A program made the translations under genes and the position numbers. A stretch of 64,000 nucleotides of DNA from an archaeon (GTDB lineage Archaea > Nanobdellota > Nanobdellia > SCGC-AAA011-G17 > GW2011-AR17), in assembly GCA_018656555.1 (NCBI GenBank), contig JABHZQ010000004.1, positions 1 through 64,000 of the forward strand, written 5' to 3'. This document shows, in pieces, positions 4,881-59,706 of the stretch (the stretch's first letter is position 1; every line of letters starts with the position of its first letter). The notes below the pieces were generated by a model. It was not told where the DNA came from. It did no database searches and saw nothing but the letters and a program-made list of their open reading frames with translations.

Positions 4881-5426
4881 ATGTCTAAAACAGAAGAAAA
4901 TCTAAAAGCAGCCTTTGCTGGGGAAAGTCAAGCAAGAAACAAATATACTTATTTTGCAAAAGTAGCTAGAAAAGAAGGCTATCTATATATCGCTAAAATA
5001 TTTGAAGAAACAGCAATGAATGAAATGCAACATGCAAAAGATGAATTCAAACTTCTAAAAGGTATTGGAGATACAAAAACCAATCTAAAAGCAGCAATTG
5101 AAGGAGAGCATTACGAAACAACAGAGATGTATCCTACATTTGCCAAAGAAGCAGAAGAAGAAGGAAATGAAGAAGCTAAGAACTTATTCTTACAAATATC
5201 CAAAGTAGAAGAAGAACATGAAGATAGATATAAGAAACTATTAGAATTAGTTGAAAAAGGTACTGTTTTCAAAAGAGACAAACCAGTAAAATGGAAATGT
5301 AGCAAATGTGGTTATATTCATGAAGGTATAGAGCCACCAGAAAAGTGTCCATCTTGTAAGCATCCAAAAGAATACTATGAGCCTTGTTGCTTATGTTTCA
5401 AGGATACTTGTGAATGTTGTAAATGA
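4881..5426 (+). CDS. Rubrerythrin
   Basis: Diiron ExxH-type repeats (AGESQARNKY, EMQHAKDE, EGEHYETTEMYP, EEEHEDRY) plus C-terminal CxxC rubredoxin-like domain; start trimmed from ORF 4854. Confidence 0.93.
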   Translation: MSKTEENLKAAFAGESQARNKYTYFAKVARKEGYLYIAKIFEETAMNEMQHAKDEFKLLKGIGDTKTNLKAAIEGEHYETTEMYPTFAKEAEEEGNEEAKNLFLQISKVEEEHEDRYKKLLELVEKGTVFKRDKPVKWKCSKCGYIHEGIEPPEKCPSCKHPKEYYEPCCLCFKDTCECCK

Positions 5427-5435
5427 GGTAATAAA

Positions 5436-5816
5436 ATGGTTGAAAAAAATGGAATTTACAAATGTAATGTTTGTGGAAATGTAGTTGAAGTAATTGACGC
5501 TCAGAAAGGAGATCTTTTCTGTTGTGGTGAAATAATGAAACTACAAAAAATAAGTATAATGGATGCAGCTCAAGAAAAACATGTTCCGGTAGTAGAAAAA
5601 GAAGAAAATAAAGTCAAGGTTAAGGTTGGTTCTATAGAACATCCCATGGATAAAGATCATTATATTGAACTTATTGAAGTTTTAGCAAATGATAGAGTGA
5701 TTGCAAGTGTCCATCTAAAACCTGAAGAGAAACCCGAAGCAGAGTTCTGTCTTTCAAACACAGAGGGAATAACTGTAAGAGCATATTGTAATCTACATGG
5801 GTTATGGGAAGCTTAA
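5436..5816 (+). CDS. Desulfoferrodoxin / superoxide reductase
   Basis: N-terminal CNVCGN...CCGE; EKHVPVV, EHPMDKDHYIE, YCNLHGLWE. Confidence 0.93.
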   Translation: MVEKNGIYKCNVCGNVVEVIDAQKGDLFCCGEIMKLQKISIMDAAQEKHVPVVEKEENKVKVKVGSIEHPMDKDHYIELIEVLANDRVIASVHLKPEEKPEAEFCLSNTEGITVRAYCNLHGLWEA

Positions 5817-6409
5817 TTAAGCAAATAAATTCATTGAAAAAATCAGAAGTCAAGTTCAAAGTAGATCAAAGATTAAATGAGTTTGAAAAGAACGAGCCCT
5901 TCAGTGAATTATGTTTTTGTATTCTAACTGCTAATTCAACAGCAGAGAGATGCATTGCAGTTCAGTCTAAAGTGGGGAAGGGGTTTCATACCCTCTCTCC
6001 TTCTAAACTACAAAAGAAACTAAAAGAAAATGGGTGTAGATTTCACAATAAAAGATCTTCTTATATTATTGAAGCTAGAAAGAAAAAACAAGAATTAACT
6101 AATTCTCTTAAAGAATTAAATGAAAAAGATCTTAGGGAATGGTTAGCAAAGAACATAAAAGGTTTAGGATACAAAGAATCTTCACATTTCTTAAGAAACA
6201 TAGGTTACAAAGATTCTGCAATTATTGATTTCCACATCTTGGATATTCTAGAGAAAAATAATTTAATTAAAAAACCAAAAACATTAAACAAAAATAATTA
6301 TTTAGCTATAGAACTAAAATTAAAAGTTTTAGCAAAGAAATTAAAACTAAATTTAGCAGAACTAGATCTTTATTTATGGTATTTAGAAACTGGTAAAATT
6401 CTTAAATAA
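5804..6409 (+). CDS. N-glycosylase/DNA lyase, Ogg2-type 8-oxoguanine DNA glycosylase
   Basis: HhH-like core with GLGYKESSHFLRNIGYKDSAIIDFHIL and C-terminal LDLYLWYLETGKILK. Confidence 0.85.
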   Translation: MGSLIKQINSLKKSEVKFKVDQRLNEFEKNEPFSELCFCILTANSTAERCIAVQSKVGKGFHTLSPSKLQKKLKENGCRFHNKRSSYIIEARKKKQELTNSLKELNEKDLREWLAKNIKGLGYKESSHFLRNIGYKDSAIIDFHILDILEKNNLIKKPKTLNKNNYLAIELKLKVLAKKLKLNLAELDLYLWYLETGKILK

Positions 6410-7336
6410 TTATAATGGTATAGGTACAACACCCTTTGCAACTTTTACTAATTTAATGCTTAACATCTGGCCAGTAGAAGTTAATTCTTTATCTTTTTTA
6501 TTAGCACCCATCAACCAACCCCATCCAGATCGCATAGATTTTTGTTGCATATCATCAGGTATATCTCTTATTAAAGCCAAAGAACCCAAAAGATAGTTTA
6601 ATCTAACTACCTGTCTTTCAACAGCAGTTCTATCTTGCATATCCACTTCATAATCCTTTTCCATTATTCTCTTAATTGCTTTAAATTTAGCTTTTGCTTT
6701 TATTATTTGTGTCTCCAAAGCCTGTTTTGTTTCATTAATTTCAGTAGTTGTTACTTGGGCAACCTTAGCCAATTCCCAAAAAGTTTTCCTTTCCTCTTCA
6801 AAAGTAAGGTTTATTTTCTGATTTTCAGTAAAACCCCTTAAGAAATTAGTTTCTCCCACACCTTTAAGTAACCAGATTTGTTGTTGTAGCAATACTTTTA
6901 GTTTTAATAATAATGTTTGCACTTTTTCAAATCTTTCTAAATGTTTACCATAAGTAAATTGCCATAAACCATCTAATTCTTTTTGCGTAATGTTTACATC
7001 TCCAGGAGGTATTCCACTATCTCTTAGAAATTTACCCATATTGTATGAGGAATTTAAATTTACTAACCAGAATTCTACCCCTTTTATTGTTTTATTATAA
7101 AGGTCCATTGCTTTTTGTGCTTCAGCATAGTCGTCTCTTAAACTCTCATGCATAAACTCTTCACTTATTTTACCAAAAGAAATAGCTCTTATTATTTCTA
7201 ATCTTTTATGAACATCTTCAAGAATCACACTATTTTTTCTAATAAAATAAGATAATCTTTTGTAAACTCCTAGAATAGATCTTTGCATTTTACCCTTAAA
7301 ATAGGCGTCCAATGCTTTCTCATCAAGAGGAATCAT
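6410..7336 (-). CDS. Hypothetical helical protein
   Basis: Uninterrupted 308 aa ORF, no overlap with a better ORF. Confidence 0.6.
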   Translation of the reverse strand: MIPLDEKALDAYFKGKMQRSILGVYKRLSYFIRKNSVILEDVHKRLEIIRAISFGKISEEFMHESLRDDYAEAQKAMDLYNKTIKGVEFWLVNLNSSYNMGKFLRDSGIPPGDVNITQKELDGLWQFTYGKHLERFEKVQTLLLKLKVLLQQQIWLLKGVGETNFLRGFTENQKINLTFEEERKTFWELAKVAQVTTTEINETKQALETQIIKAKAKFKAIKRIMEKDYEVDMQDRTAVERQVVRLNYLLGSLALIRDIPDDMQQKSMRSGWGWLMGANKKDKELTSTGQMLSIKLVKVAKGVVPIPL

Positions 7337-54661: not shown

Positions 54662-55048
54662 ATGATAGTTGATGGAGCATTTTATACAAGTTTACACGAC
54701 GTACATCCAGGAAATAAACCTCAATTAGAAGGAGTTATTGGTTCTGAAGATCAAAACTTTGCAAATAGGGCTTTTGTAACTTTTGTTGGAGATGCATATA
54801 CTTCTGTTACTGAAGATAGAGGTGGAAGGCTAATAGATGAAGAATATGACTATTTTCTAACAAGAGGTTCAAAAACAAAATATGATTTTAGAATGTTTTG
54901 GTCAGATACTGATGGTGGACTATGGTTTGAAACAAGAGAGGGAGAACCAGTTGAAGAACAAGTAGCTATTTTAGAAGCAATGGTTGAGAAGTTTAGAGAA
55001 TATAATCCTGATCTCCAATTAAGGAAATTGAAGGATCTAATTTTATAA
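54662..55048 (+). CDS. Hypothetical protein
   Basis: Uninterrupted ORF. Confidence 0.5.
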   Translation: MIVDGAFYTSLHDVHPGNKPQLEGVIGSEDQNFANRAFVTFVGDAYTSVTEDRGGRLIDEEYDYFLTRGSKTKYDFRMFWSDTDGGLWFETREGEPVEEQVAILEAMVEKFREYNPDLQLRKLKDLIL

Positions 55049-55150: not shown

Positions 55151-55189
55151 TTTTTATATAAGTAAAATTCCTTTAGAACTTGTTCTAAA
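55151..55189 (+). promoter_or_regulatory. TATA box and perfect dyad at predicted TSS of ATP-grasp operon
   Basis: TTTTTATATA (55151-55160) and TTTAGAAC-TT-GTTCTAAA (55172-55189), centre ~25 nt downstream of TATA. Confidence 0.6.
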
Positions 55190-55211
55190 AAAACAAAGGG
55201 ATTGAAAATAT

Positions 55212-56123
55212 ATGAAGCTAGGGATACTACATCACGACTTAGAGTGGCCTGAAAAAGAGTTCAAAAAATACTTCTTAGATAGAGGTTTAGATGTTGAACT
55301 TTTTGATATAAGGTCGACTAACACAGAAAAGATTCTAAATGCTAATGTAGATATTATTTTTAATAGAGTCTATGCAAGTGTTGCTAATAGAGACTACAAA
55401 TCAACTCAAAAAGCATTAAAACTTTATGCTGAATTAGAGGAATTAGGAATTAGAGTTATTAATGCTTCTAATACAACAGTAAGAAGTGGTTATGATAAAT
55501 ATTTTGCATATCAAGCAATGATTAAAGAAAAGGTAAACACTCCTAATACTCTCCTTCTAAATGGACATGATCCTAAGGAAGAATTAAATCAACTAGGGTT
55601 TCCCTTAATTGTTAAAAAAAATACTGGTGCTCGAGGTGATTGTGTTTTTAAAGTTGATAATTTAGAAGAAGCATACTCTGCAATTACAAAAATTAAAAGT
55701 TTAGAAGATTATGATGGAGAAATTCTTTTACAAGAGTTTGTAACTCCTGTGGAACCTAATGATTATAGAGTTGCAGTATTAAATGGTAAAGTACTTTTTG
55801 TTCATGGAAGATCTTTAATTTCATTAAAAGCTGGAGAAGAGCCTTGGTTAGCAAGTAGGTCATCTGGATCCAAATTAATAAAAATAGATGAAGTTTCTGA
55901 AGAATTAAAGAGTTTTGCAATTAAAGGTGCAAAATGTATTGATTCATATTTTGATGTTCTTGATATTGTAAAAACAGAGAACGGTTATTGTATTATCGAA
56001 CATAACTTAACTCCTCTTTTTACTCCCCAGTATCTGGAATTTTTAGGATTTAATCCTATAGAGGTGATATCTGAGGAAATAGTAAAAAATGAATGCATCC
56101 CTAATCTTTGTCGGGCCCAATAG
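55212..56123 (+). CDS. ATP-grasp ligase (RimK/D-Ala-D-Ala ligase-like)
   Basis: FPLIVKKNTGARGDCVFKV, LLQEFVTPVEPNDYRVAVLNGKVLF, EHNLTPLF. Confidence 0.82.
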   Translation: MKLGILHHDLEWPEKEFKKYFLDRGLDVELFDIRSTNTEKILNANVDIIFNRVYASVANRDYKSTQKALKLYAELEELGIRVINASNTTVRSGYDKYFAYQAMIKEKVNTPNTLLLNGHDPKEELNQLGFPLIVKKNTGARGDCVFKVDNLEEAYSAITKIKSLEDYDGEILLQEFVTPVEPNDYRVAVLNGKVLFVHGRSLISLKAGEEPWLASRSSGSKLIKIDEVSEELKSFAIKGAKCIDSYFDVLDIVKTENGYCIIEHNLTPLFTPQYLEFLGFNPIEVISEEIVKNECIPNLCRAQ

Positions 56124-57117
56124 AAGGGTAACTCCTTTAGAAGTAGAATCTTCAAGAGCTGGTTTCAAACCTATTCAAGTTTCTGCTTTTGATTTTGATG
56201 ATCCCTACACTGCTGGAAAAATAAAATTATTCTTAGAAGATACTGATCAAGCGTTATTTAGATTTATTTACCCATTTTATGATATTAATTATCGGAGACA
56301 AGTCTCATCATTAGTAAAAAGTGGTGAAGATATGTCTACTGCTTCTTTTAAAATTTTTGAAGAAATGATTAGGGGTTGGCAAGAATTTATTGGTTCATTA
56401 GGGATGAAAACTGTTGAAGTAAATCCTTTAGAAACTATGTTACAACAAAGAAATAAATCATTTCAATATGAAACAATGGGGCCAGAAGGATTAATCCCAC
56501 CAACTATTCACTTAACATCTGAAACACCAATTGAAAGAATAGAGGATATGTTAAGAAATACTCCTGGTGTTGTATACAAACCAGTTTCTGGTTCTCAAAG
56601 TAAGGGTATATTTATTGTTAGACAAGGACCTGATGGTTATTCTGTAATGTCTGATATAAAAGGAGATAGACCTGTAAATCAAGTAGGAGACCTATCAGAT
56701 CTTACTAGAAAATTACACCATGAAGGATATGTTGCTCAGGAATTAATAGATTATGCAGATCTTTTTGGTGGAAATGATTATGATTTAAGAGTCCATGTTT
56801 TAGATGGAGAAGTTATAGGAACAGCTGCATTTGTTTACAATAGACACACTGGTGAAGAAGAAGTTCATTCAATTGATGCAAAGGCACAAGAGGATCCAAG
56901 ATTACAAGCGACAATGGAAGAAGCAAGAAGAATGAGTTTAAGAGCAGCCGAATTGTTTGGGTTATATGATACTGGTGTGGACTTAATGGTTTCTACAGAT
57001 TATAAACCTCTAATCACTGAGGTTAATTGTTTCCCTGGTTGGTATATGCTTCAAGTTAATCCTGATTTAGATATTGCTCAAAAAGAGGTTGAATTATATC
57101 AGAGACTCCTAAAATGA
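56089..57117 (+). CDS. ATP-grasp ligase (RimK/glutathione synthetase-like)
   Basis: VVYKPVSGSQSKGIFIV, VAQELIDYADLFGGNDYDLRVHVLDGEVIGTA, GVDLMVS..LITEVNCFPGW. Confidence 0.85.
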   Translation: MNASLIFVGPNRRVTPLEVESSRAGFKPIQVSAFDFDDPYTAGKIKLFLEDTDQALFRFIYPFYDINYRRQVSSLVKSGEDMSTASFKIFEEMIRGWQEFIGSLGMKTVEVNPLETMLQQRNKSFQYETMGPEGLIPPTIHLTSETPIERIEDMLRNTPGVVYKPVSGSQSKGIFIVRQGPDGYSVMSDIKGDRPVNQVGDLSDLTRKLHHEGYVAQELIDYADLFGGNDYDLRVHVLDGEVIGTAAFVYNRHTGEEEVHSIDAKAQEDPRLQATMEEARRMSLRAAELFGLYDTGVDLMVSTDYKPLITEVNCFPGWYMLQVNPDLDIAQKEVELYQRLLK

Positions 57118-58160
57118 GCAGAATAGAAATAGATTTAGATCAAATAAGAGAAAATTATGCAAGATTAAAAACTATTGCCGATAAAAAAGGCATTTCTATA
57201 TATCCTGTAACTAAAGTAGCAGCAGGAGATCTAAGAGTAGCTAGAACATTAGAAGCAGTTGTAGTTGGTACTATGGCCGACTCAAGAATTGAAAATATTA
57301 GAAGCCTTAAACTAGCAGGTATAAGATCAGATTTTCTTTTATTGAGAGCACCTGCATTTTCTGAAATTGCTGAAGTAGTAAAATATGCGAATTATAGTTT
57401 GAATTCTTCTATGGCTACAATTAGTAAATTAGATCTTGAAGCTAAAAAGCAAGGAAAACAACATGGAGTAGTTTTAATGTTAGAGATGGGAGACTTAAGA
57501 GAAGGAACATCTATTGAAAATGCATTAACAATAGCAAGGAGAATAAAAGAATTAGGAAATGTCTATCTTTATGGAATTGGAGCTAACTTTGCATGTTATG
57601 GTGGAGTTGCACCCACAGCTGAAAAAATGCAAGCGTTAAGTAACTATGCTAAAAATTTTCCAGAAATTCAAATTGTTTCAGGTGGTAATTCTGCAAACAT
57701 ATCTTGGTTATTAGGAACAGATGATACTTACTCAATAAATAATCTTAGAATAGGTGAAGCAATAATGTTAGGATTAGAAACATTAAACAGAGAACCTATT
57801 AAAGGTTTAAACAGAGAAGCTTTTGTTCTTGCTGCAGAAGTAATTGAAGTTGAAAAAAAAGAATCTTCACCTTATGGAGAAATAGCCCAGGATGCTTTTG
57901 GAAATGTTCCTGAGTTTGAAGATGAGGGAATAATAACTCGGGCAATATTAAGTATTGGAAGACAAGATGTTGATCCAGATGGACTAACTCCATTTAATGG
58001 ACAACACACAATCTTAGGTGCAAGTAGTGATCATTTAATAATTAAAGCTGAAGAAGGTATTAGAGTAGGAGATGAAGTATATTTCACTCCAAGTTATTCT
58101 GCTTTGTTAAGACTAATGACCTCTCCCTTTGTACAAAAAAAGTATGTTACTTCTCGATGA
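57114..58160 (+). CDS. Alanine/ornithine racemase-like PLP enzyme
   Basis: RIEIDLDQIRENYARLK, YPVTKVAAGD (PLP Lys), MADSRIENI, VLMLEMGDLREG. Confidence 0.8.
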   Translation: MSRIEIDLDQIRENYARLKTIADKKGISIYPVTKVAAGDLRVARTLEAVVVGTMADSRIENIRSLKLAGIRSDFLLLRAPAFSEIAEVVKYANYSLNSSMATISKLDLEAKKQGKQHGVVLMLEMGDLREGTSIENALTIARRIKELGNVYLYGIGANFACYGGVAPTAEKMQALSNYAKNFPEIQIVSGGNSANISWLLGTDDTYSINNLRIGEAIMLGLETLNREPIKGLNREAFVLAAEVIEVEKKESSPYGEIAQDAFGNVPEFEDEGIITRAILSIGRQDVDPDGLTPFNGQHTILGASSDHLIIKAEEGIRVGDEVYFTPSYSALLRLMTSPFVQKKYVTSR

Positions 58161-58854
58161 TTAGAATTACTGGACCATAAGTATTTATTGAAGAAATTAA
58201 ATAATTCTGTTCCATCTCAACATTTCCATCTTTTTCAAGATCATCAGCTGGATCAGTTATAATAAAATTTTTATCAGTATAACCAGAAACAACAATCCAA
58301 TGTCCTGTAGGTTTACCTTTTATATCATCAAACTTACCATTGTATTTTCTAGCTTTTTTAAAATAAAGTTGAGAACTTACTAAAGCAATTACTGGTATTT
58401 TTTTATCAATATACTTTTTTATCAGTTCTTTGGAGATAGGTAAGAATTTAACCTTTCCATCTTTTTCAAAATACTCCGAATAATACTTAGTAACATTATC
58501 TAGATATTGAGTCCCTTGTCCTTCTTTAAAATCTTCAGGAGATAGATTATGTAAAAATTTACTTCTCAATTCAAGTTTCTTCTTCAATTCTTCCTTAGAT
58601 AAATCAAACCAAGTTGCATCAAACCTTCTAACATCTAAAGAGATTACAGTAGATTTAAAATCTCGTTTCATTGCAAACAGTCCTAATTCACACTCACTTG
58701 CTCCAAGTTTTAAATCATCAACTTCACAGCTAGAGATCTCATTTACAACCTCTTTTAATTCCAGTTTAGTTCCATAATATGCTAAAACTTGTAATAGAGA
58801 AGAGTGACCACAACTACTTGGCCCTTGCAATATCCTAGGAATATCTAATTTCAT
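58147..58854 (-). CDS. C39-type papain-like cysteine peptidase
   Basis: LQGPSSCGHSSLLQVLAYYG (Cys), TGHWIVVSGY (His), FIITDPADD (Asp). Confidence 0.75.
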   Translation of the reverse strand: MKLDIPRILQGPSSCGHSSLLQVLAYYGTKLELKEVVNEISSCEVDDLKLGASECELGLFAMKRDFKSTVISLDVRRFDATWFDLSKEELKKKLELRSKFLHNLSPEDFKEGQGTQYLDNVTKYYSEYFEKDGKVKFLPISKELIKKYIDKKIPVIALVSSQLYFKKARKYNGKFDDIKGKPTGHWIVVSGYTDKNFIITDPADDLEKDGNVEMEQNYLISSINTYGPVILIIEK

Positions 58855-58908: not shown

Positions 58909-59493
58909 ATGAAACCCTACTTTCAAACAACAGAATACACAACAGCAGCTTCATCTTTACTAACTATTCTCTCATATTTCAAAAAATTAAAGCCTACTAG
59001 AGAAAATGAATTAAAAATATGGAAATACTCAGTAGACCTACCAACAAGGGGATCATCTATCTATGCTCTAGCAAACCTAGCACAAGAATTAAACCCTACT
59101 ATCTTTGCAGAATCAACAGAATATGAATTTCCAGACTATAGATTCTATAGGTACACCAAAGAAGACATAGAAATAGCAGAACTATCTTCCAATCTTCACA
59201 AAAAAAAGTGCAAAATTACAATAAAAGAAAAAAAAATAACTTTAAGCACAATAAAACAATTACTAAAAGATAATATTCTTCTAATAAGATTAAACACAAA
59301 ACCAATAAGAAATGAACAAAGAAACACTTCAAACTACTTAGTCATATACAAATATGATACTCATTTCCATATTATTGACCCTAAACAAGGTAAAACTATA
59401 ATTGATGAAACAACATTCAAAGAAGCATTTAAAACTCTAAAAACAAAAAAATATAGGTCCAATAAACTAATTGCGTTCCCAAACAATATTTAA
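58909..59493 (+). CDS. C39-like protein lacking catalytic Cys/His
   Basis: FQTTEYTTAASSLLTILSYFK and SNYLVIYKYDTHFHIIDPKQG align by eye with C39-like EYTCGxA..HW..V. Confidence 0.55.
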   Translation: MKPYFQTTEYTTAASSLLTILSYFKKLKPTRENELKIWKYSVDLPTRGSSIYALANLAQELNPTIFAESTEYEFPDYRFYRYTKEDIEIAELSSNLHKKKCKITIKEKKITLSTIKQLLKDNILLIRLNTKPIRNEQRNTSNYLVIYKYDTHFHIIDPKQGKTIIDETTFKEAFKTLKTKKYRSNKLIAFPNNI

Positions 59494-59530
59494 GATCACA
59501 ACAATTAAACTAAATAAATCTTTAAAAACA

Positions 59531-59666
59531 AAACTTCTATTTAAATGACCATGCGAAAAAAAAGGGTGAAGCTTTTGCAGAATCCAGAAGCTACAAAAGA
59601 AGAGGCAGACATAGATATGGATGAACTCCATATAGCAATGTAACAACAATCCTTAAATAGAAGTTT
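59531..59666. repeat. 14-nt perfect inverted repeat flanking a small ORF upstream of ftsZ
   Basis: AAACTTCTATTTAA (59531-59544) and TTAAATAGAAGTTT (59653-59666). Confidence 0.8.
59545..59643 (+). CDS. Possible microprotein (32 aa)
   Basis: MTMRKKRVKLLQNPEATKEEADIDMDELHIAM*; position between inverted repeats; no clear SD. Confidence 0.3.
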   Translation: MTMRKKRVKLLQNPEATKEEADIDMDELHIAM

Positions 59667-59706
59667 AGTGTAATTATATAATTATTCTAAAAGGGAGGAA
59701 ACAAAA

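Follow-up and report, generated by a model that had tools for sequence, protein, structure and literature searches.

Several described systems resemble the locus analyzed here. LysX and ArgX, which act in the LysW-dependent synthesis of lysine and arginine, share an ATP-grasp fold with RimK, the ribosomal S6 glutamate ligase. Further points of comparison are the microviridin-type graspetides, a class of RiPP, and the D-cycloserine synthetase DcsG, whose pathway also includes a racemase. Gene neighborhoods combining amidoligases and peptidases were reportedly surveyed by Iyer, Abhiman, Burroughs, and Aravind in 2009; there, as at the present locus, ATP-grasp ligases are said to have amino-acid-modifying enzymes and peptidases with unrelated folds as neighbors. 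Among the papers searched, none joined an ATP-grasp enzyme, an LD-carboxypeptidase, and a racemase.

The locus lies in a 64,000-nt stretch (positions 1 to 64,000, forward strand), referred to as the window, of the archaeal contig JABHZQ010000004.1 (assembly GCA_018656555.1), from a host genome of 1.08 Mb that is about 98% complete and whose ribosomal proteins, L10e and L35Ae among them, indicate an archaeon. The genes for ligase 1, ligase 2, and the racemase form a head-to-tail overlapping trio, and the gene for a C39-like peptidase lies on the opposite strand (Table 1). The two ligase genes overlap by 35 nt, the ligase 2 and racemase genes overlap by 4 nt (ATGA), and the racemase and C39 genes are convergent with a 14-nt overlap, all of which agrees with the coordinates and overlaps in a preliminary description of this DNA. 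The Pfam scores of the four proteins are all above the curated cutoffs. By their Pfam and NCBIfam matches they belong to the ATP-grasp, alanine-racemase, and C39 superfamilies, and no curated equivalog was reached. The peptidase had been described as intact and papain-like, and its catalytic set is indeed present (Cys in SSCG, His in TGHW, and Asp in TDP); it is a candidate hydrolase of the operon product. A second C39-like gene, overlooked in the preliminary description, is divergent from the intact one; in its protein, TTAA and TSN occupy the places of the Cys and His motifs so that the catalytic Cys and His are lost, and it may be a pseudoenzyme partner. The hypothetical gene on the other side of the operon ends 163 bp before ligase 1. 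Its protein had no homologue in the related loci examined, and it is probably not part of the operon.

Table 1. Coordinates of the features discussed. Positions are those of the window unless a genome (G) or locus (L) handle precedes them.
Feature	Position	Strand	Match
Hypothetical, 128 aa, between rpl10e and the operon	54662-55048	+	No family match
Ligase 1, ATP-grasp, RimK/LysX fold, 303 aa	55212-56123	+	Pfam RimK 55.4 bits
Ligase 2, ATP-grasp, YheC/D-like, 342 aa	56089-57117	+	Pfam ATPgrasp_YheCD 50 bits, RimK 35.8 bits
Putative PLP racemase, alanine/ornithine (Orr) type, 348 aa	57114-58160	+	Pfam Ala_racemase_N 92 bits
C39-like papain-fold peptidase, 235 aa	58147-58854	-	Pfam Peptidase_C39_2 53.1 bits
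Second C39-like protein, membership uncertain	58909-59493	+	Pfam DUF3335 34 bits, Peptidase_C39 28.4 bits
Inverted-repeat region just upstream of ftsZ	59528-59669		
Micro-ORF	59549-59643		
Third ligase-like gene of the G004 operon	G004 5118-6440		No Pfam match; weak ATP-grasp-type NCBIfam match
Nitroreductase-family gene, G387	L068 12776-13408		
Nitroreductase-family gene, G486	L084 10650-11219		
L,D-transpeptidase gene, G405	L069 1490-2209		YkuD 77.5 bits
Lone PF01177 gene among comparison genomes, G430	L126 8157-8567		
rpl10e-ftsZ cargo, G001	L041 7236-9934		
rpl10e-ftsZ cargo, G008	L042 1651-4340		
Ligase 2 homologue and neighbor, G143	L128 1537-3610		

Ligase 1 is a distinct RimK-fold subfamily, with the motifs HHDLEW and NRVYASVANR. 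Its 12 homologues are 32 to 46% identical, and the 25 invariant columns of the family are all present in the window protein. The invariant residues include Lys135, Asp184, Arg186, Arg200, Asp251, Glu263, and Asn265, and among the 25 are those that the family would lead one to expect at the ATP, metal, and catalytic sites. An AlphaFold model (pLDDT 88, pTM 0.88) was closest among solved folds to ArgX (3vpb, TM 0.78), LysX, and RimK, followed by Ddl. The NCBIfam scores were 107.1 bits against the RimK-family model (cutoff 143.4), 88.7 bits against LysX (cutoff 275.6), and 35.3 bits against RimK itself (cutoff 331). Ligase 1 probably couples an amino acid and a carboxylate.

The window operon is a divergent variant of a rare conserved archaeal operon. 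Ligase 1 was searched for in a sample of the window's phylum, in plasmids, and in viral contigs. A two-ligase profile identified it in 7 of 371 phylum genomes (window included) and a 7-row profile in 10 of 180 genomes of one other family, f60, giving 13 carrier genomes for both searches together. The plasmid matches were generic RimK alone (22 to 28%), and the viral contigs searched contained neither ligase 1 nor an Orr-type racemase. A further ATP-grasp gene directly follows ligase 1 in all 12 of the other genomes, a racemase gene directly precedes it in 8, and S66 is found in 8. Among the four operons without a racemase beside ligase 1, one ends at a contig edge. All 38 operon junctions are 45 bp or shorter, and 26 of them are overlapping. 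The typical order elsewhere is an aspartate-type racemase and ligase 1, followed by one or two further ATP-grasps and, in most cases, an S66 LD-carboxypeptidase, the racemase and S66 calls having been verified with Pfam on representatives. With ligase 1 written as 1 and two further ligase families as A and B, the individual orders are racemase-1-A-B-S66 (G429), racemase-1-A-B-nitroreductase with ftsZ converging (G486), racemase-1-circularly permuted ATP-grasp-B-S66-nitroreductase, also with ftsZ converging (G387), racemase-1-A-third ligase-like gene with C45 converging (G004), racemase-1-A (G407 and G492), racemase-1-B-S66 (G405 and G222), 1-B-S66 (G494 and G385), and 1-X-B-S66 (G471 and G482), compared to 1-ligase 2-Orr with C39 converging in the window. 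The G385 contig ends upstream of the operon, which adjoins the CCA-adding enzyme gene and rpl10e. The nitroreductase-family genes of G387 and G486 lie between the operon and the convergent ftsZ. Like the window genome, G004, G407, G486, and G492 lack S66.

Three further results came from comparing the operons. First, the racemase of the related operons is closest to the Pyrococcus aspartate racemase 1JFL (276 bits), retains the two catalytic cysteines, and passes the cysteate-racemase model, from which we infer an acidic amino acid or a close analogue as the substrate. Second, by association tests that ignore relatedness, on phylogenetically non-independent counts and with comparison genomes that were not randomly chosen, the PF01177 racemase occurred in 8 of 13 operon genomes, always inside the operon, compared to 1 of 33 comparison genomes (Fisher p 4e-5), S66 occurred in 8 of 13 compared to 7 of 33 (p 0.012), and S66 adjoined 8 of 9 operons with ligase B and 0 of 4 without it (p 0.007). 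The lone PF01177 gene of the comparison set belongs to another Aspartate/glutamate racemase subtype, lies in another context, and carries an in-frame stop. Third, the window shares with these operons the ligase 1 subfamily and a coupled ATP-grasp, whereas the A or B ligase, PF01177, and S66 are absent. Neither PF01177 nor S66 was found in the window genome, nor were L,D-transpeptidase and LysW, and Orr and C39 are plausible replacements because the first two are missing there. No other genome sampled had the window's own set of ligase 2, Orr, and C39. For this reason, the functional membership of Orr and C39 is argued by analogy.

The three-gene operon probably makes, without the ribosome, a short peptide or an amino-acid conjugate that contains a D-amino acid. 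This reading is suggested because tight operons repeatedly combine a racemase and a hydrolase with two or three distinct ligases even though the racemases (aspartate type or Orr) and the hydrolases (S66, C45, or C39) are unrelated. The Orr-type racemase would supply the D-amino acid, both ATP-grasp enzymes would activate carboxylates with ATP and add residues in succession, presumably to give a free peptide, and the convergent C39 enzyme would hydrolyze or trim the product, as the counterpart of the S66 LD-carboxypeptidase or C45 hydrolase in the relatives. The pathway would keep its logic although its components are exchanged: a D-amino acid is produced, it is ligated, and the product is controlled or recycled. 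Points against this reading are that C39 is encoded on the opposite strand, that four of the other operons have no racemase beside ligase 1, and that the window's own gene set recurs nowhere else in the sample. No spare frame for a precursor peptide was found in the window operon, and no related operon has a gap of more than 45 bp; the micro-ORF lies outside the operon. That no operon leaves space for a precursor gene agrees with non-ribosomal synthesis. The preliminary description had proposed peptide ligation with possible D-amino-acid incorporation and had seen no obvious precursor. Ligase 1 and its coupling to a further ATP-grasp recur in 12 genomes beyond this one, which is more than chance, and a racemase, stacked ATP-grasps, and a hydrolase recur together among the operons. 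This supports the proposal and the conservation of the neighborhood theme; a ribosomal precursor is not supported.

The known systems differ from this operon in several respects. LysX/ArgX have the same fold as ligase 1, but LysW was detected in 0 of the 13 ligase 1 genomes, while the positive controls were detected, and the LysX score falls far below its cutoff. A LysX/ArgX identity was therefore rejected, as were RimK and glutathione synthase identities for the ligases, whose scores were far below the cutoffs; the clean assignment to one of these pathways that the preliminary description named as a refutation was not found. RimK has the ATP-grasp domain and fold in common with ligase 1, but the context of racemase and hydrolase differs. 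Ligase B of the related operons is nearest in the PDB to a graspetide ligase (a weak match of 40 bits), but the window ligases have no notable matches to graspetide models, and a graspetide RiPP was rejected because the operon has no precursor peptide gene. For ligase A of the related operons the nearest match is DcsG (60 bits, also weak), but the DcsG model score was 42.8 bits compared to a cutoff of 360, and ligase A is absent from the window. The folds and family models nearest to ligase 1 (ArgX/LysX and RimK; the RimK family and LysX) and the matches of ligase 2, which include TTL in addition to YheCD in Pfam, would also suit the modification of a protein or carrier, in which a RimK- or LysX-like ligase 1 extends a protein C terminus and the peptidase removes residues. 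We consider this unlikely; apart from the missing LysW, 0 of 13 operons encode a carrier or substrate protein, and a racemase together with two or three different ligases fits a small peptide better.

Two parts of the window operon are peculiar to it. The racemase scored 355.8 bits against the NCBIfam Orr model, below the curated cutoff of 480, and aligned with bacterial homologues (34 to 42% identity) it keeps the PLP-lysine motif and the conserved blocks; from its sequence it is predicted to be a PLP amino-acid racemase of the alanine/ornithine type. The presence of Orr instead of an aspartate-type racemase suggests that the D-amino acid in the window product is another one, perhaps basic or neutral. 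No homologue of this racemase was found in the 370 other phylum genomes at E ≤ 1e-10. Ligase 2 has one weak homologue in these genomes (G143) and none in the plasmids searched, and exact-peptide scans of genome contigs with ligase 2 and the racemase gave no match. The G143 homologue overlaps an alanine-dehydrogenase-like gene. Profile comparison of ligase 2 with families A and B was not significant (hhalign probability 19% and 4%, respectively). This singularity of Orr and ligase 2, the variable content of the site within the family (see below), and the bacterial Orr relatives, which adjoin permeases or DUF1611 genes, might mean that unlinked genes were brought together, with Orr serving D-amino-acid catabolism, C39 unrelated, and only the two ligases cooperating. 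That is quite improbable given that the Orr gene overlaps ligase 2 and that other operons reproduce the functional triad from non-homologous parts.

A broader proposal can be put forward tentatively. Reduced-genome archaea may have undescribed modular non-ribosomal pathways of this kind, in which ligase 1 is constant and the racemase, second ligase, and hydrolase are exchanged to give small peptides specific to each lineage, which could be signals, inhibitors, or building blocks of the surface, with the window as the most rearranged example. Archaea with small genomes have little biosynthetic capacity, and a patchy, dedicated peptide pathway with its own D-amino-acid supply would be unexpected in them; it could matter for their interactions with partners. 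The 13 natural versions, differing in racemase, ligase, and hydrolase, allow substrate and product to be compared across variants.

The operon lies between rpl10e and ftsZ. Of 18 family genomes, 11 (window included) have this pair within reach, and its cargo varies, with short hypotheticals or other small genes elsewhere. For instance, G001 and G008 have two ornithine-cyclodeaminase/mu-crystallin-like genes and a convergent amidohydrolase in the slot (assigned by Pfam for the G001 genes). In G004, a member of the window's family, the slot holds a racemase, two clear ATP-grasps, the third ligase-like gene, and the convergent C45 hydrolase, in parallel to the window. In the ligase 1 tree, however, the window groups with G387 and G429 (support 100/97) and G004 groups with G222 (support 95/94). 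Because the two lie on different branches, the slot has probably been filled more than once, and simple vertical inheritance of the operon in it is doubtful. The ftsZ gene adjoins the operon in two lineages (window/G004 and G387/G486), and none was found in the examined stretches of the remaining operon members.

The preliminary description had raised a cell-envelope hypothesis from the neighboring ftsZ, and the operon could in principle make a stem peptide like that of peptidoglycan, to be attached or cross-linked on the cell surface. Besides the two ftsZ lineages, the LD-carboxypeptidases of murein recycling belong to the S66 family, and G405 has an L,D-transpeptidase gene two genes from the operon. 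But ftsZ is missing from the examined stretch of most related operons, the slot holds unrelated cargo in relatives, and L,D-transpeptidase does not co-occur with the operon (4 of 13</replace><year></year><why>c, w: "as frequent" not stated; wording</why></edit>
<edit><find>A defense-system search gave no match for the operon genes. The GC content of the operon resembles that of neighboring genes and its GC3 is somewhat low, which is no clear evidence of recent transfer. Just upstream of ftsZ, the region around the micro-ORF matched no Rfam family, and</find><replace>A defense-system search gave no match. The GC content of the operon resembles that of neighboring genes and its GC3 is somewhat low, which does not clearly point to recent transfer. 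The region around the micro-ORF, immediately upstream of ftsZ, matched no Rfam family, and operon genomes compared to 8 of 33 others; p 0.72, relatedness again ignored). Given also that the window genome has no YkuD, a peptidoglycan-like wall is not supported; the envelope reading is very unlikely, and the ftsZ adjacency is a lead only. Overall, YkuD was present in 12 of 46 genomes searched.

Some minor observations concern the surroundings. A defense-system search gave no match for the operon genes. The GC content of the operon resembles that of neighboring genes and its GC3 is somewhat low, which is no clear evidence of recent transfer. Just upstream of ftsZ, the region around the micro-ORF matched no Rfam family, and its exact 14-mer occurs nowhere else in the window. 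The micro-ORF is flanked there by a 17-nt inverted repeat (94%), and the RNA fold of the region has a z score of -3.7.
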